Shown: positions 4,076-38,816 of the stretch, in pieces
How positions within the stretch are numbered: the first letter of the stretch is position 1
Layout of the letters: each line of letters begins with the position of its first letter
Source: Planctomycetota bacterium
GTDB lineage: Bacteria > Planctomycetota > Planctomycetia > Pirellulales > PLA5
Direction: 5' to 3'
Assembly (NCBI GenBank): GCA_003576845.1
Contig: QEVJ01000030.1
Location: forward strand, 1 to 45,900
DNA length: 45,900 nucleotides
The notes under the pieces: model-generated
What the model saw: the letters and a program-made list of their open reading frames with translations, nothing else
Databases searched by the model: none
What the model was told of the DNA's origin: nothing
Made by a program: the position numbers and the translations under genes

Positions 4076-4549
4076 ATGTTGAATCGCCGTGTGTTCGCCA
4101 TTGCCCTGGCCGTGTGTGCCTTGGGCGTGCTGACCTCGACCGCCGAAGCCCGCCGCCTGCGTCAAGACCCGCCGGCCGCTCCGACCCCGCCCGCCTCGCC
4201 GTCCGATGCCGCGCCCGCCCCTGCAGCGCCCGTCTACGCTTCCGGCTGCTGCGCCGATGCGAAGCCCTGCTGCGATCCGTGCATCAAGTATCGCCATCGC
4301 CGCAACCGCTGCTTCAAGTGCTGCGAGTGCGGCACGACCTCGGCCACGCTCCGCGTCAAGGATGCGTGCTGCTGCTGCTACATCGACGTGCCGGTCTGCA
4401 TGCCCTGCTGCGTCAAGGGCGAGCCGTGCGTGAGCACCCGCTGCGGCCTCTTCGGCCGGACGATCGTCGAATACTCGTGGGACTGCGGCTATCGCATTGA
4501 AGTCGCCATGACCAAGCACGGCGACGCGATCGTCACGTACTTCGGTTAA
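4076..4549 (+). CDS. Small secreted cysteine-rich protein of unknown function
   Basis: 157 residues. A clear signal peptide (MLNRRVFAIALAVCALGVLT, cut near TAEA) is followed by a Pro/Ala-rich linker to about residue 55. A compact Cys-rich region of about 90 residues follows, with 19 Cys in clusters (GCC, KPCC, DPC, KCCEC, ACCCC, MPCC). The last stretch (IVEYSWDCGYRIEVAMTKHGDAIVTYFG) is ordinary. The Cys spacing does not match haem (CxxCH), a zinc ribbon or a 4Fe-4S ferredoxin that I recognise. Many disulfides in the periplasm or outside the cell, or metal binding, are both plausible. TTGAGGAGACG directly before the ATG gives a strong ribosome site, and a terminator at 4583-4618 marks a single-gene unit. 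I do not recognise the family. Confidence 0.88.
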   Translation: MLNRRVFAIALAVCALGVLTSTAEARRLRQDPPAAPTPPASPSDAAPAPAAPVYASGCCADAKPCCDPCIKYRHRRNRCFKCCECGTTSATLRVKDACCCCYIDVPVCMPCCVKGEPCVSTRCGLFGRTIVEYSWDCGYRIEVAMTKHGDAIVTYFG

Positions 4550-4582
4550 TCGCGGTCGCTCAAGCGCAACGAAAGATCGAGC

Positions 4583-4629
4583 ATCGGCCCGGCGAGCCAA
4601 ACGGTTCGCCGGGCCGATTGCGTTTTCGG
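4583..4629 (+). terminator. Rho-independent terminator after the Cys-rich protein gene
   Basis: A perfect 13-bp GC-rich stem (4583-4595 with 4606-4618) and a 10-nt loop are followed by TGCGTTTTCGGG. The stem is very stable; the T tract is short. Confidence 0.7.
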
Positions 4630-4630
4630 G

Positions 4631-4717
4631 TGCCACTGCTGGCTCGTCCAGCAGTGAGAATTGCCGATGGACGCTGATGATTCGCGAATCGCACTTTCGT
4701 ACGAGCCAGCAGTGGCA
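4631..4717. repeat. Small element with 16-bp terminal inverted repeats, CCACTGCTGGCTCG type
   Basis: 4631-4646 is the exact reverse complement of 4702-4717. Inside, CACTGCTGG and CCAGCAGTG (4634-4656) form a further hairpin. It sits between the terminator and the end of the cytochrome gene, whose coding sequence holds related palindromes at 6640-6741. Confidence 0.75.
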
Positions 4718-4736
4718 AATCCTCAGCCCGAGTTTC

Positions 4737-7289
4737 TCAGCGTTGACGCTGCCCTAGACTCTCGAGCAGCGCCCGCGCGTCGCGATGCCGCGGGTCGATG
4801 GCCAGTGCCCGCTCCGCCGCGCCGCGGGCGTCGCGCGATCGGCCGTGCTTGGCGTAGATCGTCGCGAGCGCGAACGGAATATCCGCCCGCCGCGGGTCGA
4901 GCTTCTCCGCTTTGACGAGCGCGGCCACGCCTTCCGCCGCCTTGCCCGATTGGTCGAGCGCCAGCCCCAGGTTGTACCACGCCCGGCTGTGATTCGCGTC
5001 GACGGCGACGGCCTTTTCGAGCGACGCGATGGTGTGCTCGACCTCGCTCAACTCGGCCCACGCGAGTCCCAGCTTGTACCAATACTCGCCGTCGCGCGGC
5101 GCAATGCGGACCGCTTGCTGCATCTGCCGCACGGCGTCCGCCGGCCGCTGCTGCTGTGAATAGCCGACCGCCAGGGCGTCGCGGATCGGCGCGCTGTTGG
5201 GATCCCACCGCACCGCCCGCTCGAACCAACCCACCGCACCGTCGACGTCGCTGCGTGCGAGTTGCCACATGCCGCGCTGCATCGCGCCGCCGGGCTGATC
5301 GTGGTTGTGCCGCAGATAGGCGAGCGCGTCTTTCCCGGCCGCCGAGTTTTCGTCGACCGTCGCTCGCAGCGCCCACGCCGCCGCCACGCGCACGCTGAGC
5401 ACCGGGTCGTCGAGCAATTTCGCCAGCGCCGCGGTCGCCGCCGGATGCCGCACGTCGACGAGCGGCTCGATCGCCCCGGCCGCCTTCTCGCGGACGAGCG
5501 GAAATCCGTGCCCGGTCGCGTCGACGAGCGCCCGCTGCACGTCGTCGCGTTCGAGCAATTCGCCCTGTCGCAGCAGCGTCGCCGCCGATGCTTGCCAGAA
5601 CGCGTTGTCCGCGTCGCCGAGCATTGTCAACAGCGGCTCGCGGGCTTGCTCCGCATCTCCCGACCGCGCCGCGGCGATGATTCGTGCCCGCCGCCGCGAA
5701 GGCCGGTTCATCCGCTCGCCGTACCACTTCTCGACCGCCGCGAGCGACCAATCGGCGTCCTTGTCCGCGTGACAGCGGTTGCAGGCGTTCGGAATGCCGT
5801 GCCGCTTCGTCAAAAAGGGGTCGGGAGTCGTAAATCCGTGGTCGTGCCGCCAGTGCCTCTGCATGTAGACCGTCTGCGGCATGTGGCAATTCACGCACTG
5901 CGAGCCGGTGCTGTCGGCCTTATGAAACGTGTGCGCCGCCGGGTCGATCCGCGGCGACTTCGGAAACGAACCGTTGTGACATCTCATGCACAGGTCGTTG
6001 CCCTCAGCGAGCGGCCGCGCCTGGTGCGGATCGTGACAATGCAAACACGTCACGCCCGAGGCATACATGCGGCTCGACAAGAACGAAGTGAACTCGTAAT
6101 CCTCCTCGCGCACCTGGCCGTCGGCGAAAAAGATTTCCGAAAGGTCCGGCACGACGAGCGAATAGTGATCGAAGAACGACTCGCCCGGCACGAAGTCGCC
6201 GGTCAACTCGCCGCGCCGGGCATGACACGAGCCGCAGATCGCGAGCCACTCGGTAGACGTGAACTTGCGAAGTGTGGGATCGGGGCCGGGGCTCGGGGCG
6301 CGGGGTTCGGGACGCGGGGAATTCTGCGCACCGCGATTCGCCTGCTGCCAATCGACGTGGTCCTTCATCGGTCCGTGGCACGCCTCGCAACTCACCGTCG
6401 CTTCGGCCATCGTCGTGGCGTAAGTGTCGCTCGCCGCGTCGTAATTCTTCTTCACCCGCGTGTTGTGACACGAAGCGCACTGGCTGTTCCAGTTCATTCC
6501 CCGCCCGGTCCAATGCCCCCACTCGCCCGGCTTGCGGTCCTCGTCGCCATACACATTGAACCACTCGTGCTTCGCCGGGTCGTAGCAAAGCTCCAGCACC
6601 TGCTGCCGGCCAATCGCCCGATGCAGTTCATCGTCGGGCGCCACTGCCTCAGCCAGTGTTGCGTCCGAATCGGCCTCGGGTGCCACTGGCTCAGCCAGTG
6701 TTGCGTCCGAACTCGCGTGGGGTGCCACTGGCTCAGCCAGTGCAGACCCGTCGCCGCGCCCCGCGCCCCGCACCCCGCGTCCCGCTCCCTCCGCATCGAC
6801 AATAAACTGCCGCAGCGGCTTCTCGCCAATCACCCGCCTTGCCACTCGCGGCGCAACTTGACCTTCCAGCCCCAAAGTCTCGACAACGTATTCCCCCGCG
6901 TCCCGCGCCCCGCGTCCCGCGCCCCGCTTCCGCACCACACTCGTCTGCGAACCATGCTCCACGGTCCGGCTCGGCTCGAAAGCAACGTCATCGCGCGCCG
7001 GATCGACCAACCGCTCCGCCAGCCCATGATGCGAATGCCGCCAAGGCTCGAACTGCTCGGCATGGCAAGCGCGGCACGACTTCGACCCGGCATAGCCAGC
7101 AAACTCAGCCCGCGCCGACGCCGCCGTTTCCGTGGCCGCAACGTTCGCCCCGTCCGCGTCGAAGTTCTCGCCCGATTCGCCGCGATCCAACCCACGGAGC
7201 CCGCCGGCAGCCCACCACACCAGCAACCCCAGCCCGACGCATCCGCCCAGAGCCAGCCACGCAACGTAAGCCCGCTTCACACCAGCCAC
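4737..7289 (-). CDS. Membrane-anchored octahaem c-type cytochrome with HEAT and TPR domains
   Basis: 850 residues. It starts with a GTG and an N-terminal membrane segment (WLALGGCVGLGLLVWWAAGG). Eight CxxCH haem sites follow in order: SCRACH (about residue 72), QCASCH, SCEACH, ICGSCH, CLHCH, CMRCH, CVNCH and CNRCH. HEAT-like helical repeats come next ('PLLTMLGDADNAFWQASAAT', 'LLDDPVLSVRVAAAWALRA'), then four or more TPRs to the C-terminus. The layout matches planctomycete cytochrome c554-like/TPR proteins, expected in the periplasm as an electron carrier or oxidoreductase. The enzymatic role is unknown. Three stretches (about residues 120-133, 167-217 and 322-339) are encoded by dispersed DNA repeats and look like extra loops. 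No haem-assembly genes are nearby. Confidence 0.92.
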   Translation of the reverse strand: MAGVKRAYVAWLALGGCVGLGLLVWWAAGGLRGLDRGESGENFDADGANVAATETAASARAEFAGYAGSKSCRACHAEQFEPWRHSHHGLAERLVDPARDDVAFEPSRTVEHGSQTSVVRKRGAGRGARDAGEYVVETLGLEGQVAPRVARRVIGEKPLRQFIVDAEGAGRGVRGAGRGDGSALAEPVAPHASSDATLAEPVAPEADSDATLAEAVAPDDELHRAIGRQQVLELCYDPAKHEWFNVYGDEDRKPGEWGHWTGRGMNWNSQCASCHNTRVKKNYDAASDTYATTMAEATVSCEACHGPMKDHVDWQQANRGAQNSPRPEPRAPSPGPDPTLRKFTSTEWLAICGSCHARRGELTGDFVPGESFFDHYSLVVPDLSEIFFADGQVREEDYEFTSFLSSRMYASGVTCLHCHDPHQARPLAEGNDLCMRCHNGSFPKSPRIDPAAHTFHKADSTGSQCVNCHMPQTVYMQRHWRHDHGFTTPDPFLTKRHGIPNACNRCHADKDADWSLAAVEKWYGERMNRPSRRRARIIAAARSGDAEQAREPLLTMLGDADNAFWQASAATLLRQGELLERDDVQRALVDATGHGFPLVREKAAGAIEPLVDVRHPAATAALAKLLDDPVLSVRVAAAWALRATVDENSAAGKDALAYLRHNHDQPGGAMQRGMWQLARSDVDGAVGWFERAVRWDPNSAPIRDALAVGYSQQQRPADAVRQMQQAVRIAPRDGEYWYKLGLAWAELSEVEHTIASLEKAVAVDANHSRAWYNLGLALDQSGKAAEGVAALVKAEKLDPRRADIPFALATIYAKHGRSRDARGAAERALAIDPRHRDARALLESLGQRQR
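6275..6323. repeat. Seven degenerate 7-bp units inside the cytochrome gene
   Basis: Contiguous 7-mers of GGGCTCG, GGGCGCG and GGGTTCG type, in register from 6275 to 6323. They encode an Arg/Pro-rich loop (PRPEPRAPSPGPDP) between the third and fourth haem sites. Confidence 0.8.
6640..6788. repeat. Three 42-bp tandem units with palindromes, then five 7-bp units, inside the cytochrome gene
   Basis: GCCACTG starts units at 6640, 6682 and 6724. Each contains a palindrome close to CACTGGCTCAGCCAGTG, and the first two also share GTTGCGTCCGAA. The 42-bp period is 14 codons, giving the protein repeat SDATLAEPVAPEA. From 6754 to 6788 come five contiguous 7-mers (CCGCGCC, CCGCACC, CCGCTCC types). Confidence 0.85.
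6896..6930. repeat. Five degenerate 7-bp units inside the cytochrome gene
   Basis: CCGCGTC and CCGCGCC alternate twice, ending in CCGCTTC, all in register. They encode the loop KRGAGRGARDAGE near residues 119-131. Confidence 0.8.
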
Positions 7290-27990: not shown

Positions 27991-30291
27991 ATGTCCGACG
28001 CATCTTCTCGCCTTTTACGTCCGGCTTTTCGTCGCAAGTTTTTGCTAGCCGGGCTAATACTGCTCGTCTCGAAGGTATCGGTCCGCGCCGCCGACCCGAA
28101 GTCGTCGCTCGAGTTCGTCCCCGCCGATGCCCACGTCTACGTCTCCGTCTCGCGCCTGGGCGAGCACGTCGAAACGATCGGCAAGAGCAACTGGTGGAAG
28201 GAAGTCCAAAAGAACGAGAGCGTGCGGCGCGCCATCGAACAGATGGCCCCACTGGGCGCCGCCGAACCCGACGCCGACGTGATACTCTCTCCGGCCGCGC
28301 AGATGCTGTTCGACCTGAAGAACCTCCCGCTCGCGCAGCTCGCCGGCGAAATGGCTGCCGAGGAGGTCTTTTTCTACACCGACCGCCGCGCCGTCGACCT
28401 CCTCGCCCTCTCCGGCGAGTTCTCCGAAGGCATGTACGTCGGCTACATGGGCATCGGCTTCATGTTAGCCACCGGCCAATACGAGCCGTTCGGCGGCGAC
28501 TTCGAGAACATGATCGCGGAGCGCTTGCTGCAACCCGTGCGCGATAATCTCGACAAGGTGAAAGTGCCGCACCTGGTCGTCGGTTTCAAGGTCAAAGACC
28601 CGGCCAAAGCCGAGAAAGTGCTCGCCGCCCAAGTCGATCGCGTTCGCGAAATGATAAGCGACTTCGCCCTCTCCGCGCCGTCGGACAAGATTCTCGAAGA
28701 AACGGTCGCCGGCAAGAACTGTTACATCTGGCGGTTCAGCGGCGAATCGATTCCCTGGCCGGCCGTGTTCGATCTGCACGGCGACGTCCCGGCGGCCGTC
28801 GAACCGATCTTCTCCCATCTCCGGGGACTCAAGGGCGTCGTCACGCTGTCGCTCAACAAGGGCTACGTCCTGATCGGCGTCGCCGATTCGCCCGCCTGGA
28901 TCGAAAAGCTCGGCCATGGTGAACTCCTCGCCGATCAAGCCGATTTCGCTCCGCTCAAGAAAATGGCGGACGGGCCGATCACCGGCATCAGCTATGCCAG
29001 CCGCGAAGTCCGCTCGGCGCTGTACTTTGATCAGCCGGACGTCGACAACCTCGTCCGAGCCATCAAGCGCACGATGGTAGCGTCCGAAGTTTCGGAACCG
29101 ATCGCCAAGGACATCGGCAAGGCCCTCGACGGCATGGCCGACGACCTGCGGGCACAAATTCCGCGGATCGGCTCGTCGCTGACGATCGCGCACACATCGC
29201 CGCAGGGTCTCGAATTCACGACGTACGACAACACCGAGCCGCTGCACGTCGACGGCACGAAACCGCTTGCCATACTCGACCACGTCGGCAATGCGCCCAT
29301 CGCCTTTTGGGCCGGCCGCCACAAACGTATCGAGGAGCTTTACGGCGAACTCTCGAAGATCGTTGCCGGCGGCTACGGTCTCATCGAGAAGCACGCGTTC
29401 CCGGCCCTTTTGCCGGAAGCCCAAACGGAAGTCCGTCCATTTTTCGACCGCATGAAGCCGATCGCGAAGAAGTTCGACCGGGCCATGCGCGACCTGTGGC
29501 TGCCGCCGCTTTCCGAGGGTCAGTCGGCGGTCGTTTTCAGCGCCAGGCCGCTTAGCGGTCCGTGGAGCTTGGGCGCTCCGCCCGAGGCGGCGGAAATCGC
29601 CATTCCGCTTCCTGCCGTCGTGTTCGGCGTCAAGGACATGGACCAGCTTCACGCGGGCATCAAGGAGCTTCGCGCCGCGTTCAACGACGCGGCGGCGGCG
29701 TATGCCCAGGCGGTGCCGTTCTTCGGCGAGGCCGTGAAAATCGACGAACCCAAGTCGCGCGAGTTTCCCGAGGGGACGATTTACTGGCACGTGCTGCCCA
29801 AGGATTGGAACTTCGACAAGCGAATCGCCCCGAACTACGGCCTCGGCAAGGGCTTCGCCGCCTTCTCGTTCGTGCCGCTCGACACGCAGCAATTGCTCGG
29901 CACGTCGAACCTCAAGCTGCCCGCGCCGCTCGACAAGCGCGACGCGCCGCTCGCCGCGGCAGTTTACGTCGACGTGCCGCGGGTCGTCGAGACAGTCGGC
30001 AATTGGATTCTGTTGTCGAACCACTACGAGCACCAAACCGAAAAAGTCGAGATTACCGACGGCGAGATCGTCGAGGAGCACAAGCTCGTTCCCGTCAAAC
30101 GCAACACACAGGAGGCCGAGAGCATCAAAAAGTTCCTCGCGCTCGCCAAGGCCGTGCCCAGCTACACGAGCGCCACGCGGGTCGAAGGCGAAACGACGAT
30201 CACGCACGGCATTCTGCGGATCGTCGATTTCCCTGCGACGTCCGGCGACGCCGAAAAGAAAGCAGAGCGAACGCCGGACGAGAAGCGGTAG
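27991..30291 (+). CDS. Large secreted hypothetical protein
   Basis: 766 residues with ATG at 27991 and CGGAG 9 nt upstream. The N-terminus is a signal peptide (RRKFLLAGLILLVSKVSVRA). The mature part opens 'SSLEFVPADAHVYVSVSRLGEHVETI', a beginning shared by many planctomycete secreted proteins and similar in style to DUF3352 proteins. Repeated beta-alpha stretches follow with phrases such as 'VGFKVKDPAKAEKVLAAQ' and, later, 'VVFGVKDMDQLHAGIKEL', suggesting that a domain is repeated two or three times. No enzyme motif or sorting signal is seen, and the C-terminus is charged. I do not recognise a characterised family. It stands alone between minus-strand genes; the 250 bp before it holds only the possible promoter. 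Confidence 0.85.
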   Translation: MSDASSRLLRPAFRRKFLLAGLILLVSKVSVRAADPKSSLEFVPADAHVYVSVSRLGEHVETIGKSNWWKEVQKNESVRRAIEQMAPLGAAEPDADVILSPAAQMLFDLKNLPLAQLAGEMAAEEVFFYTDRRAVDLLALSGEFSEGMYVGYMGIGFMLATGQYEPFGGDFENMIAERLLQPVRDNLDKVKVPHLVVGFKVKDPAKAEKVLAAQVDRVREMISDFALSAPSDKILEETVAGKNCYIWRFSGESIPWPAVFDLHGDVPAAVEPIFSHLRGLKGVVTLSLNKGYVLIGVADSPAWIEKLGHGELLADQADFAPLKKMADGPITGISYASREVRSALYFDQPDVDNLVRAIKRTMVASEVSEPIAKDIGKALDGMADDLRAQIPRIGSSLTIAHTSPQGLEFTTYDNTEPLHVDGTKPLAILDHVGNAPIAFWAGRHKRIEELYGELSKIVAGGYGLIEKHAFPALLPEAQTEVRPFFDRMKPIAKKFDRAMRDLWLPPLSEGQSAVVFSARPLSGPWSLGAPPEAAEIAIPLPAVVFGVKDMDQLHAGIKELRAAFNDAAAAYAQAVPFFGEAVKIDEPKSREFPEGTIYWHVLPKDWNFDKRIAPNYGLGKGFAAFSFVPLDTQQLLGTSNLKLPAPLDKRDAPLAAAVYVDVPRVVETVGNWILLSNHYEHQTEKVEITDGEIVEEHKLVPVKRNTQEAESIKKFLALAKAVPSYTSATRVEGETTITHGILRIVDFPATSGDAEKKAERTPDEKR

Positions 30292-33418: not shown

Positions 33419-33994
33419 CTATTTCTTCAGCTTCTTGAGCTCGTACGCCTGCTGCCGGCGCGCTGCGTACTTGAACACGAAGTCGCCGCGCGGATCGAAG
33501 CCTTCTTCGCCGCTACCGAACGCGCCGAGCGACGCCTGCCGCGTGAAGGCCAGCCACAGCCGGTCCGGAGCGACGCCGAGCATCTCGTGATCCGGCGCCG
33601 CCATGAACGAGCCGAAAAACGGCGACCGGGCAAGCGGCGAAACGTGCAGACTCACGAGCAGGAAGCAGAACACGACCCAACCCGACCAGAGCGCGAGCAC
33701 GACCGCGCCCGCCACGTCGAACATGTACGGAAACCGCACCTTGACGCGCGAAACCAAATCGGTCGCCAAGCGAAACAACGTCGCGAACACCGCGAACAGG
33801 ACCCACAGGCAGATGAAGTCCATCGTGTTCGAGTTCTTGTCGCCGAGCTTGTCGGCGAGCGGCTCGAAGAAGTTCATCGCCAGCAGCGCCGCGAACACGA
33901 CGTTCACGAGCGTTAGACCCGCGCCCCAGATGCCGCGGTTCCAAAGACACGCGGCCGCGCCGATCAGGATGATCGCCAAAAACGCAAACAGCAT
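33419..33994 (-). CDS. CvpA-family-like membrane protein
   Basis: 191 residues from the ATG at 33994, 23 bp after the GspE-like gene. The frame continues upstream antisense-like within that gene and is not coding there. The membrane segments are 'MLFAFLAIILIGAAACLW', 'GAGLTLVNVVFAALLAMNFF', 'FICLWVLFAVFATLFRLATDLV' and 'VAGAVVLALWSGWVVFCFLLVSLHV'. The spacing and the small first loop (NRGIWGAGLTLVNVV) are those of CvpA proteins, linked in other bacteria to envelope stress and colicin V release. A soluble C-terminal tail of about 70 residues ends LKKLKK. It is probably co-transcribed with the GspE-like gene, which itself has membrane segments. Confidence 0.75.
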   Translation of the reverse strand: MLFAFLAIILIGAAACLWNRGIWGAGLTLVNVVFAALLAMNFFEPLADKLGDKNSNTMDFICLWVLFAVFATLFRLATDLVSRVKVRFPYMFDVAGAVVLALWSGWVVFCFLLVSLHVSPLARSPFFGSFMAAPDHEMLGVAPDRLWLAFTRQASLGAFGSGEEGFDPRGDFVFKYAARRQQAYELKKLKK

Positions 33995-34017: not shown

Positions 34018-35829
34018 CTAACCGTTCGACTTGAACACGCGATTGATTTCTTCGAGCGACGTAACGCCGGCGGCCGCCAGGAGTACGGCCTCCTCCAACA
34101 ACGACCGCACCTTCGCCGCGCGGGCCGCGGCGCGGAGCGCGTCCATCTTCGGCTGTTCGACGAGGACACGCCGCATTTCGTCGGTTACGACGGCGAACTC
34201 GAACACCGCCGTCCGCCCGAAGTATCCGATCCCCTCGCACTGCTCGCAAAACGGCAGTTCCGACTTTTTCTTCGCCGGATCGGGAACGGGCACGCGGAAC
34301 AATTGCTGCACGCGGCCCTCGGGAATGCCGAACGCCCGCAACTCCGCCGCACTCGGCTGATAGGCTTGCTTGCAGCCGTCGCACAGCTTTCGCACCAGGC
34401 GCTGCCCGACGACAGCAGTGATGCTGCCGGCAAACACTTTCGCCGGCACGCGGAGCATGAGCACGCGCAACAGCGACTCGATGCCGTCCTTCGCGCCGAT
34501 GCTGCCGACGATCAGCTTGCCGTCCGCGCCGAGTTGACAGAGTTGGGCAACCGACTCGGCATCCGACCAATCGCGGTGGACGATCACGTCGGGATACTTT
34601 CGCAGCAATCCCGGCAGGACGTGGGCGGCCGTCTGCTGTTTCGACTCGTCGTACGTGACGACGGTCACGTTCTCGATGTGTTTCTCGGGGCGCTCGGCCG
34701 GCTCGATCGCATAAACCTCGCGCATCAGGCGGTCGGTCGACATGAGCGCGACGTTGAAGGTCGTCGTCAGGCCGTGCTTCGGCAGCGACGAGAAGAGCAC
34801 GACGCCCTGTTTGGCGGCGAGCGCTTCCTTGAGCGCGGCTTGCGTCTTGTCGCGCATGCCGAGATCGGCGAGCGTCTCGAACGGCACGACGTCGACGTCG
34901 AAGCGGACGATCGCCCGTTCGCCCGTCTTGGCCATTTCGGCGACCACTTCGCATGCGTGGCGGCGGAGGCGAAACTCGACGGAGCAGCGGCCGGTCTGGC
35001 GGGCCACGTGCTCGTCGCAGTCGAGACCGGAAATCAGCTTGAGCACGTCGGCCATCGACGCGCCGGTCGCCACGTCTTCCGGCTCGAACGGATGCCACAC
35101 GCCATCGACCTGAAACCGGATTTCCGTCTTGGCCGGCAAGAGATCGACCGCCACCGTGTCGGCGCGATGGGCGAGGGCTTCGCCCAAAAGTCGCCGCACC
35201 GGCGCGAAACCGATCATTTGCCGGGCCCGCAGCAGGTTCGCCCGCTCGTCGCGCTCGCTGCCGACGCCGCCCGGAATAATCTCGATCTTGGGACCGGCGT
35301 CGCGCGGGTCGGCCTTCTCGACCTGAATCTTCACACCGACGGGACTCAGCGCCCCCGCAAATAGCGATTTGATGTGCCGGCCCGTGAGAACCTTGTCGTC
35401 GTCCATCACCATCGGGTTGCGCTTGGCGACATACGCGAGCAGCGGACCGCAATAGGCGACGAGCAACACCGGAAACCCGATCCAGAACGACGGCAGAATC
35501 CACAACAGCACCATCGCGACCAGAAACGGAAACACGACGAGCGAGTTCCACGTCGCGTAGCTCAAACGCCGCTCGTGAACGTCGCGGTTCACCCAGTCGC
35601 TCGTGCGAACCCAAAGCAAGAACAGCAGCCACGCGAGCGCGATCTTCCAAACGGACAGATAGAACCCGGGACCGCGGGCGCGGGCGTCTTCGCTCATGAT
35701 CGGCCAGACGCCGGATTCCTGAGCGCTCGCTGCCGCCGCGAGGAGATTCCAGCAGGCAACGAGCAGCAGCGGCGCCGCAATGCGAGAAGAAATGTTCGCG
35801 AACCGTCGCCGCAAGCGAGCACAATTCAT
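34018..35829 (-). CDS. GspE/PilB-like secretion ATPase paralogue with lost nucleotide-binding motifs, membrane-anchored
   Basis: 603 residues from the ATG at 35829 (35886 also possible). It has a signal-peptide-like start (IAAPLLLVACWNLLAAAASA) and two or three membrane helices ('WKIALAWLLFLLWV', 'VVFPFLVAMVLLWILPSFWIGFPVLLVAYCGPLLAYVA'). It then has the whole body of a type II/IV pilus ATPase: N2 domain ('PVRRLLGEALAHRADTVAVDLLP'), core, the zinc-type Cys pairs CDGC and CEQC, and 'GIGYFGRTAVFEF'. The motifs needed for ATP use are altered. Walker A GPTGSGKTTT is LPKHGLTTT (about residues 349-357, Lys to Leu), the Walker B/Glu region is 'YPDVIVHRDWSD' (GEIRD absent), and the His box is GSIGAKD. 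It is probably a non-catalytic, membrane-bound relative. It is coupled to a CvpA-like gene 23 bp downstream. Confidence 0.85.
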   Translation of the reverse strand: MNCARLRRRFANISSRIAAPLLLVACWNLLAAAASAQESGVWPIMSEDARARGPGFYLSVWKIALAWLLFLLWVRTSDWVNRDVHERRLSYATWNSLVVFPFLVAMVLLWILPSFWIGFPVLLVAYCGPLLAYVAKRNPMVMDDDKVLTGRHIKSLFAGALSPVGVKIQVEKADPRDAGPKIEIIPGGVGSERDERANLLRARQMIGFAPVRRLLGEALAHRADTVAVDLLPAKTEIRFQVDGVWHPFEPEDVATGASMADVLKLISGLDCDEHVARQTGRCSVEFRLRRHACEVVAEMAKTGERAIVRFDVDVVPFETLADLGMRDKTQAALKEALAAKQGVVLFSSLPKHGLTTTFNVALMSTDRLMREVYAIEPAERPEKHIENVTVVTYDESKQQTAAHVLPGLLRKYPDVIVHRDWSDAESVAQLCQLGADGKLIVGSIGAKDGIESLLRVLMLRVPAKVFAGSITAVVGQRLVRKLCDGCKQAYQPSAAELRAFGIPEGRVQQLFRVPVPDPAKKKSELPFCEQCEGIGYFGRTAVFEFAVVTDEMRRVLVEQPKMDALRAAARAAKVRSLLEEAVLLAAAGVTSLEEINRVFKSNG

Positions 35830-36013: not shown

Positions 36014-37501
36014 TCAATCGGACCAAATCCGTTCGAGCAGCCGAAACAGTTCCCCGTCGTGCTCGCGCAGCTCCGCGCGGACGAACGGGTAGAAGTCGTT
36101 CGTGCCGAAAAACGCTTCGGTCGCCTCGGCAAAATACTCCTCGACGCTGCTCGCCGCGTAACTCTTGCGCCGCCGGCCCGAATAGTCCAGCACGGAATCG
36201 TATTTCTTCTCTTTCATCGCCTCTCGAAAGCGATCGCGCAGCGGCGCATACTCGTGCGTGAGCACGCGATGATGATACCCGTGCGCCAGCTCGTGCAACA
36301 CCATCCACGGTTGATGCTTCGACCAGTCGAGAAACGTCTCGGCATTGGCGATTTCGACCGCGCCGGCTTTGTCCATGCTGAAACCGTGTTCCTTGAGCCA
36401 TGCCGGCGAAATGTGATAGCACGCGCAAGGATGCCGCGGGTCGGCAAGTTCCAGCCAGAACGGGATTTTTTCAAGTTCCGCGAGCGGTCGCTGCGGGACC
36501 ATCCGGCGGATGTCGTACAGCTTGTGTTCGAGGAGTTCGAGCGTCCGCCCGCACAGCTCTTCCTTGGCGAGCAGTTGCCGATTGATGTGGACGGTCCAAC
36601 CGAGGACGTTGCGCGTGGCGTAGTCGCCGCTGGCCTGCCCCGGCGGCGCGGCGTCGAGCGGAAGAAGCTCAACGCGCCGGAAGAAGATTTCGGAGCCTTC
36701 GCATTGCAGCAAGATCGGGCCGGACGCGAGCGAGACGCCGGTGATCTCGTTGACTGGCGTGCCGTTGACGTACGTGCGAATTACATCGCCGCGGCACTCG
36801 CATTCGACGCGCGTCCATTCGCGGTTGCGGCTTTCGATGTCGCGCGGACCGCGGAAGTCGAGCTTGTCCTGCCAGGCCTCGCTCTTGTCGAACCAGTTGA
36901 CTCGACCCGTGCCGGCGAGTTCGACGCTGGCGGCTTTGGCCGAGTTCGCGTCCGGCTCGAACGTCGGCCAGTTGTCCGCGTCGCGGTTCGCCTTTGCCCG
37001 CACGGCGAGCTTGGGAAGAATCGGCTTACCGGACTCGTCGCGACCCTTGATGATCAGGAAGTCGCCCACGGCGCCTTGCATGATCTGGCACTCGATCGCG
37101 GCGCGATACGCCCCGTCGGCGTCAAAGCTGTTGCCGTCGGATCCCTGGGCATGGAGGAACAGGCCGGAATCGCGGGCCTTGTCGACGCGGTCGCCGTAGT
37201 TCCTTTCGCCCCAGCGGAACTCGACCACGAGGCGATAGTCGCGATAGGCCCTGTCGGTGGCGAGGTAGCCCAGCCCGTCGCCGGAGATGCGGATCGTGCC
37301 GTCGCGGACGCCAAACACGCCCCGCGGGTCGTCGCGCTTCGTATCGCGAAGCCAGGTTTTCCAACCGTCAAGATCGCGGCCGTTGAACAAGACGATCGGT
37401 CCGACCGTCGGAGAAACTGGCTCATCGGCGAGCGCCCGCGGTGGGAGACTTGCAACGGCCACGCAAGCGAGCAGGGGAAAAAGCAACAGTTTAGGCATCA
37501 T
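36014..37501 (-). CDS. Secreted DUF1080 (3-keto-disaccharide hydrolase) domain fused to a zinc metallopeptidase-like domain
   Basis: 495 residues from the ATG at 37501, where GGGGA lies upstream. The signal peptide is KLLLFPLLACVAVASLPPRALA. Residues about 35-265 form a DUF1080 domain, typical in planctomycetes: 'IVLFNGRDLDGWKTW', 'DYRLVVEFRWGERNYGDRVDKARDSGLFLHAQG', 'AIECQIMQGAVGDFLII', 'GPILLQCEGSEIFFRRVELLPL'. A second domain follows, with 'LEHKLYDIRRMVPQRPLAEL', the HExxH zinc motif in 'VLHELAHGYHHRVL' (about residue 400) and a later Glu candidate in 'SVEEYFAEATEAFFG', as in gluzincin-like peptidases. The pairing suggests a secreted enzyme binding glycan or glycopeptide and cutting peptide; this is inference. 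No neighbour supports a pathway. Confidence 0.88.
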   Translation of the reverse strand: MMPKLLLFPLLACVAVASLPPRALADEPVSPTVGPIVLFNGRDLDGWKTWLRDTKRDDPRGVFGVRDGTIRISGDGLGYLATDRAYRDYRLVVEFRWGERNYGDRVDKARDSGLFLHAQGSDGNSFDADGAYRAAIECQIMQGAVGDFLIIKGRDESGKPILPKLAVRAKANRDADNWPTFEPDANSAKAASVELAGTGRVNWFDKSEAWQDKLDFRGPRDIESRNREWTRVECECRGDVIRTYVNGTPVNEITGVSLASGPILLQCEGSEIFFRRVELLPLDAAPPGQASGDYATRNVLGWTVHINRQLLAKEELCGRTLELLEHKLYDIRRMVPQRPLAELEKIPFWLELADPRHPCACYHISPAWLKEHGFSMDKAGAVEIANAETFLDWSKHQPWMVLHELAHGYHHRVLTHEYAPLRDRFREAMKEKKYDSVLDYSGRRRKSYAASSVEEYFAEATEAFFGTNDFYPFVRAELREHDGELFRLLERIWSD

Positions 37502-37655
37502 CGCGTTCGCATCCCCAATCGGCGTCCCCTCGTGCGCGGCGGGCAGATATAATTCCCGCAACGGATACGCGCAGAGCGACTTCCATGATACTCGGCGGCG
37601 AGCCGCGCGTGGCGGGCCTCTGCCGGTTCGAGCGGTCGAGCGGCGATAGGGACGA

Positions 37656-38816
37656 ATGCAACGATTTTCCCCCGACCCCCGATCCCTGGCCCCCAACCCC
37701 TGGACGCCGTCGTTCTCGCTCGCCGAGCGCGAAGCGGCCTTGCTCGCTCCCTACGCGATGCCCAGCCGCACGACGCGGGGGCGGCCCTACGCCGAACCGC
37801 CGCACGCGTACCGCGGACCCTTTCAGCGCGACCGCGACCGGATCATCCACAGCGCCGCCTATCGCCGGCTGAGCGGCAAGACGCAAGTCTTCACTGGCGA
37901 ACCGGGCGATTACCACCGAACGCGGCTGACGCACACGATCGAAGTCGCCTCGATCGCCCGCACGATCGGCCGCGCGCTGCGGCTCAACGAAGACCTGATC
38001 GAAGCGCTCGCACTGCTCCACGACATCGGCCACCCGCCGTTCGGCCACGCGGGCGAAGACACGCTCGACGCGGCGCTCGCGTCTGAGGGCGGCTTCGACC
38101 ACAACCGCCACGCGCTGCGGATCGTCGAGCATCTGGAATACCGCTATCCCGGTTTCGCAGGCTTGAACTTGAGCGTCGAAGTGCTCGAAGGACAAGCGTT
38201 CCGCGACGGCAAAGATGCGTCGCAAGTGCGGCCGCTCGTCGAAGTGCAGGTCGTCGATGCGGCCGACAGCATCGCCTACGACGCGCACGATGCCGACGAC
38301 GCATTGGAACTCGGCCTGTTGCGTCTCGACGAACTGGCGGAAGTCGCCCTGTGGCGCGAGGCGGTCGCCCGCGTGCGGCGGCGGTTCGTAGACCTCGCTG
38401 AAAGCGAGCTCCGCCGGGCGGTGGTTCACGAGTTGATCGACTATCGCGTCGACGACCTGCTCCGCGAAACGACGGCGCGCATCGGGCGGTTCGGCGTCGA
38501 CTCGCCGGCGGCCGTGCGGCTGGCGCCGTGGCTGGCGGCGACGGGAGACGAAGCGGCCGCTAAAAAGGCCGATCTCGAAGCGTTCCTCTACGACCGCGTG
38601 TATCGCCATCCCCGCGTGATGGACGTTCGTCGCGCCGCCCAGGCGAAGCTGGCGGAAATGTTTGCGGCCTACGAGCGGCGGCCGGACTTGCTGCCCGAGG
38701 GCTTTCGCCGGCGTGCGGACGAGGTCGGCCTACGGCGGACGATCGGCGATTACCTGGCCGGCATGACGGACCGCTTCGCGCTGGCCCAGTACGACCGGCT
38801 TGCGAACGGCAACTGA
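37656..38816 (+). CDS. dGTPase-like HD-domain phosphohydrolase
   Basis: 386 residues. The HD-superfamily metal ligands are in place: His of 'RTRLTHTIEVASIARTIGRAL', His-Asp of 'EALALLHDIGHPPFGHAGEDTLD', and the later Asp of 'EVQVVDAADSIAYDAHDADDAL'. The Dgt-type opening 'PFQRDRDRIIHSAAYRRLSGKTQVF' and the C-terminal 'LYDRVYRHPRVMDVRRAAQAKLAEMFAAY' are typical of the dGTP triphosphohydrolase type 2 family, which converts dGTP to deoxyguanosine and triphosphate in the cytoplasm. Residues 5-16 (SPDPRSLAPNPW) are encoded by five 7-bp repeat units, so the true start could be a later codon, such as the ATG at 37758 (MPSRTTRGRPY). It diverges from the DUF1080 gene. Confidence 0.92.
   Translation: MQRFSPDPRSLAPNPWTPSFSLAEREAALLAPYAMPSRTTRGRPYAEPPHAYRGPFQRDRDRIIHSAAYRRLSGKTQVFTGEPGDYHRTRLTHTIEVASIARTIGRALRLNEDLIEALALLHDIGHPPFGHAGEDTLDAALASEGGFDHNRHALRIVEHLEYRYPGFAGLNLSVEVLEGQAFRDGKDASQVRPLVEVQVVDAADSIAYDAHDADDALELGLLRLDELAEVALWREAVARVRRRFVDLAESELRRAVVHELIDYRVDDLLRETTARIGRFGVDSPAAVRLAPWLAATGDEAAAKKADLEAFLYDRVYRHPRVMDVRRAAQAKLAEMFAAYERRPDLLPEGFRRRADEVGLRRTIGDYLAGMTDRFALAQYDRLANGN
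37669..37703. repeat. Five contiguous 7-bp units at the 5' end of the dGTPase gene
   Basis: CCCCCGA twice, then TCCCTGG, CCCCCAA and CCCCTGG, in exact 7-bp register. It is a single arm with no partner seen nearby. Confidence 0.75.

Follow-up and report, generated by a model that had tools for sequence, protein, structure and literature searches.

A predicted membrane-anchored pseudo-ATPase of the GspE/PilB family usually encoded beside PilT and a CvpA-like protein in Planctomycetota

Introduction

The GspE/PilB assembly ATPases (PF00437), such as Vibrio cholerae EpsE, Thermus PilF and Geobacter PilB, combine an N2-like domain with a RecA-like C-terminal fold, a zinc tetracysteine and a GYxGR end. 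The tetracysteine distinguishes assembly ATPases from retraction ATPases (PMC5061722). Retraction can involve a pair of homologous motor-family proteins, PilT and PilU. In the case described, PilU has conserved Walker motifs and is itself an ATPase; it depends on PilT and can act solely by way of it, including PilT that is catalytically dead (PMC6762196). The open papers searched hold no description of a GspE/PilB pseudo-enzyme or of a link between CvpA and PilT, though absence from these papers does not prove that none exists. The main text of the essential-gene paper on Planctopirus limnophila mentions neither pil genes nor CvpA.

Here we describe a GspE/PilB relative encoded in a 45,900-nucleotide stretch of a planctomycete contig (the window). 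Like the assembly ATPases, it has the N2-like and RecA-like parts, the four cysteines and the terminal motif; unlike them, it lacks the Walker A Lys, the Walker B Glu and the His of the His box, and a signal sequence with three membrane helices replaces its N1 domain. PilT and PilU provide the closest precedent for coupling between two such proteins, but PilU retains its Walker motifs whereas here we describe a membrane-anchored PilB-type protein that is catalytically dead by its motifs. Our preferred reading, to which we assign a probability of roughly 55%, is that this conserved pseudo-ATPase works with a PilT-family ATPase and a CvpA-like protein, most likely as the static membrane side of a motor unit.

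Results and Discussion

The pseudo-pilB open reading frame lies on the minus strand (34018..35829), with its ATG at 35829 and its stop ending at 34018, and encodes 603 amino acids. Instead of a helix-free cytosolic N-terminus, the protein begins with a predicted signal sequence (residues 1-36; 35722..35829, minus strand), modelled with low confidence as a helix over residues 3-35. Three membrane helices predicted from the model follow on the same strand: residues 60-86 (35572..35652), in which W73 is near-invariant among relatives that have the region, 91-111 (35497..35559) and 115-140 (35410..35487), the last with a conserved N138. A linker and N2-like domain occupy residues 181-310 (34900..35289, minus strand). 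Charges in the loop joining the first two helices and in the segment after helix 3 suggest that the motor part faces the cytoplasm.

A Pfam search gave T2SSE as the only domain (residues 212-597, E 1.7e-42), and neither this search nor inspection of the model revealed an N1 domain. The AlphaFold model has a mean pLDDT of 88.7, with the three helices preceding the N2-like and RecA-like parts. By sequence the protein matches PDB chains of PilF, PilB and GspE, and Foldseek ranked Thermus PilF/PilB, V. cholerae EpsE and Geobacter PilB at the top (E ~1e-33; TM-score on the target up to 0.88). Profile and fold thus place the protein in the T2SSE superfamily. Its scores lie far under the NCBIfam cut-offs for GspE and PilB (146.8-170.5 bits against 617-676) and for TfpB (120 against 850), so it belongs to the family but is no named equivalog. 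It is not a PilT/PilU retraction ATPase, as it reaches 21.6 bits against a PilT family cut-off of 319 and has the tetracysteine, a feature that puts it on the assembly-ATPase side (PMC5061722). A PADLOC search gave no match.

Aligned with a canonical PilB of the same genome, the protein has substitutions in each motif characteristic of a functional GspE/PilB ATPase. The Walker A sequence GPTGSGKTT reads SLPKHGLTT, with Lys replaced by Leu354 and Gly353 kept (residues 349-357, LPKHGLTTT; 34759..34785, minus strand). In Walker B (residues 414-423, DVIVHRDWSD; 34561..34590, minus strand), Dh4GE has become D414-IVHRD, the Gly being replaced by Arg419 and the Glu by Asp420. In the His box (residues 441-448, VGSIGAKD; 34486..34509, minus strand), LHTND has become IGAKD, with Gly445 in place of His. 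Retained are C483-x2-C486 (34372..34383, minus strand), C528-x2-C531 (34237..34248, minus strand) and the GYFGR that follows; the four cysteines form a putative zinc tetracysteine like that of the assembly ATPases. The initial annotation had described a membrane-anchored GspE/PilB relative without nucleotide-binding motifs that kept the fold markers (N2 domain, two Cys pairs, GYFGR). The alignments, the T2SSE match and the predicted helices agree with the first part of that description, and the model and alignments with the second.

The substitutions extend well beyond one genome. At a threshold of E 1e-45, orthologues were found in 278 of the 297 Pirellulales genomes searched. Ten of the 19 genomes without a match were searched for pilT and six were opened around that gene; all six have a weaker or contig-cut pseudo-pilB copy adjoining PilT. 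An alignment-based contig scan gave three loci, one of them in Blastopirellula marina DSM 3645 (L160), by which the order was identified as Pirellulales. Some Pirellulaceae have a short copy alone, without membrane helices. The initial annotation proposed to check whether the substituted motifs recur in other genomes, and they do: of 102 Pirellulales sequences aligned, 100 have lost Walker A Lys, the two exceptions being short tandem copies, whereas it is kept in 12/12 canonical sequences. Gly353 is invariant, the Ser/Thr after the lost Lys is mostly retained, and none of the zinc cysteines is missing from more than one of 101 sequences (at least 99% conservation). Because the motif loss is common to the whole order Pirellulales, neither chance nor sequencing error explains it.

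The window's genome encodes five canonical PilB paralogues with all motifs intact, along with PilT-like proteins, and the window gene might accordingly be viewed as a decaying copy of a redundant PilB, the more so since it has lost its usual linkage to pilT here. We consider this highly improbable and, in essence, refuted: the protein is conserved throughout the order with a near-invariant Cys tetrad, the reading frames are intact, the same loss is seen in a second class, and selection is purifying. The dN/dS between the window gene and a same-genus relative is 0.141, and five further comparisons between dead copies gave 0.08-0.29. The initial annotation had taken orthologues with intact Walker motifs as a sign that this copy was only decaying. 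Such orthologues do exist, in a sister family described below (36/36), but the inference of decay does not hold given the order-wide substitution and these dN/dS values. Retention of the dead form across a large part of the phylum, usually beside an intact PilT, looks instead like that of a working non-catalytic part of a motor.

Could ATP still be hydrolysed at an unusual site, with another residue in the role of the Walker A Lys and Asp420 in that of the Glu? Among 101 Pirellulales sequences, 66 have Asp and 21 have Glu at the Walker B position; Gly353 does not vary, and Lys is present in two short paralogues, all of which could fit such a site. However, the Lys, the His-box His and the GEIRD Arg have been lost together, the replacements vary widely within and between clades in a way not expected of a re-evolved site, and the adjoining PilT keeps all of its motifs. 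Hydrolysis of this kind is therefore improbable, if less so than decay, and pseudo-enzyme status is well supported by the motif comparisons. As Gly353 and the Ser/Thr are mostly retained, the protein may still bind nucleotide.

The two short paralogues (L097:5273-6604 and L103:5259-6620) are second copies adjoining a dead membrane-anchored copy. They have a Walker A Lys (GDGKSTL and GDGKTTI), possibly re-gained, and neither a Walker B Glu nor a His box.

The PilT neighbour is evident in the relatives. Among loci of at least 5.5 kb, a PilT-family ATPase gene lies directly upstream of pseudo-pilB in 52 of 58, and all 52 of these PilT proteins keep GxTGSGK[ST]T, GE[LMV]RD and the HA motif. The pseudo-pilB ATG overlaps the pilT stop in 29 of the 52. 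The usual gene order is pilT - pseudo-pilB - cvpA, also in the second class, and hisF precedes pilT in about 38 loci. The dedicated two-gene membrane system suggested initially is not supported, as most relatives have three genes, pilT and pseudo-pilB often being translationally coupled. In the window's genome this order is broken: a PilT orthologue (64-68% identical) is found beside hisF on contig C143 (hisF 4164-4925, pilT 6193-7287 in L246), away from the window pair (L008/L246). The window therefore shows two of the usual three genes, pilT being unlinked in this genome. Linkage to PilT is also looser in the sister family, many genomes of which encode PilT either away from the membrane-anchored gene or with that gene missing; thirteen of its genomes with canonical PilB alone as best match still have this PilT, and co-occurrence is thus not exclusive.

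On our preferred reading, three helices would fix a GspE/PilB-type RecA-fold protein in the inner membrane with its motor domain in the cytoplasm. Probably no longer able to carry out normal ATP hydrolysis, this protein would share one complex or pathway with the PilT-family ATPase and the CvpA-like membrane protein, with which it may associate physically. As a non-hydrolysing oligomeric ring, or as an adaptor, it would most likely dock a soluble PilT-type motor at the membrane and pass the movement of that motor to, or gate, a type IV filament platform of a pilus or secretion system. The role initially suggested, regulating or scaffolding a pilus/secretion machine, would be compatible with this. 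A more specific version is that Planctomycetota have a previously undescribed motor unit, in which a soluble PilT ring sits on a membrane-embedded dead PilB ring with the CvpA-like protein, and in which PilB catalysis disappeared one or more times, perhaps as many as three, with PilT left intact on each occasion. We offer this version tentatively, as it is appreciably less probable than the general reading.

A role away from pili deserves nearly as much weight as that specific version, though we think it unlikely: the dead PilB-like domain would bind nucleotide, or a different ligand, with no hydrolysis, and would act together with the CvpA-like protein as a regulator or sensor controlling PilT in another membrane process. 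In the loci examined, no pilin, PilC or secretin gene lies within the three-gene cluster; the canonical pilus motors and the GspF/PilC and secretin genes of the window's genome lie elsewhere, and the kept P-loop Gly353 and Thr/Ser would suit ligand binding. Nevertheless, PilT-family ATPases of known function act, to our knowledge, on type IV filaments, and the zinc domain and C-terminal fold of assembly ATPases have been retained.

The same membrane protein also occurs in an intact form. In sister family f4 of the same class (probably Planctomycetales), the membrane-anchored gene has all motifs in 36/36 sequences, with the same signal and membrane region and the same CvpA neighbour (loci L014-L022 and L163-L192); it is in its motifs that it differs from pseudo-PilB. 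Four more full-length intact sequences come from two further families (L023-L025, L032). Intact and dead members have the N-terminal membrane region in common, including W73, W94 and N138, and no zinc Cys falls below 95% conservation in any group compared, whether intact or dead. Since the same full-length protein is intact in f4 and the two other families, the membrane architecture predates the loss of catalysis. In the second class (that of G142, probably Phycisphaerae), Lys is lost in 53/53 sampled membrane-anchored copies, the replacements being varied, mainly Val, Arg and Leu. The dead form is thus kept over a large part of the phylum, as judged from these alignments.

How often catalysis was lost depends on the history assumed for the gene. 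If it followed the classes, the simplest reading is two losses in the anchored lineage. A quick tree joined Pirellulales with the other class (support 57), while a tree with Pirellulales beside the intact sister family was 10.1 log units better and was not rejected (p-AU 0.686). A further dead copy, about 440 amino acids long, unlinked and without membrane helices, is present in the f4 genomes (22/22 searched; L267-L288), independently of whether the intact membrane-anchored gene is present; Walker A Lys is lost in all 22 copies, which have the motif PPxSG[VT]TTT. A wider tree united the three dead clades on long branches with modest support (84). Given these short copies and that tree, a single ancient dead paralogue may lie behind the dead clades.

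A pseudo-enzyme from the PilB/GspE family of assembly motors that persists through a whole order and also in a second class comes with its own natural controls: a sister lineage in which this membrane protein is intact, and a homologous ATPase, likewise intact, encoded next to it. The system makes it possible to test the role of non-catalytic motor surfaces and the need of PilT for a membrane dock, and it offers a first handle on a widely conserved CvpA family in Planctomycetota.

The member of that family in the window is a membrane protein of 191 amino acids (33419..33994, minus strand), whose gene starts 23 nt downstream of pseudo-pilB. It passes the Pfam cut-off for Colicin_V (CvpA; PF02674) over residues 10-130 (E 2.3e-7; 31.3 bits against 29.3). 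Its model is helical (pLDDT 89.0) and had no significant match in the PDB. Conservation of this neighbour across the phylum, which the initial annotation proposed to check, is borne out by the entries compared: 73 of 103 in Pirellulales, 32 of 36 in f4 and 57 of 58 outside the class have a CvpA-like gene downstream, and truncation of the locus accounts for some of the misses. The CvpA-like proteins of this group differ from the Colicin_V core in having a conserved C-terminal tail beyond it (APDRxWLxF...FDPxGxF...KYxxRR). In about 20 loci (e.g., L075:5856-6590 and L088:6089-6835), a DUF4190-like membrane protein is encoded beyond cvpA and could be the cluster's fourth member; beside the window pair this gene was not found.

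Two other genes in the window merit mention. The product of 27991-30291 (plus strand) has 766 amino acids and an apparent signal sequence, and had no match in the Pfam search. The gene at 36014-37696 (minus strand) encodes an unusual combination of a 3-keto-disaccharide hydrolase domain and a C-terminal zincin-like part with the motif HELAHGYHHR and a weak Peptidase_M90 match.
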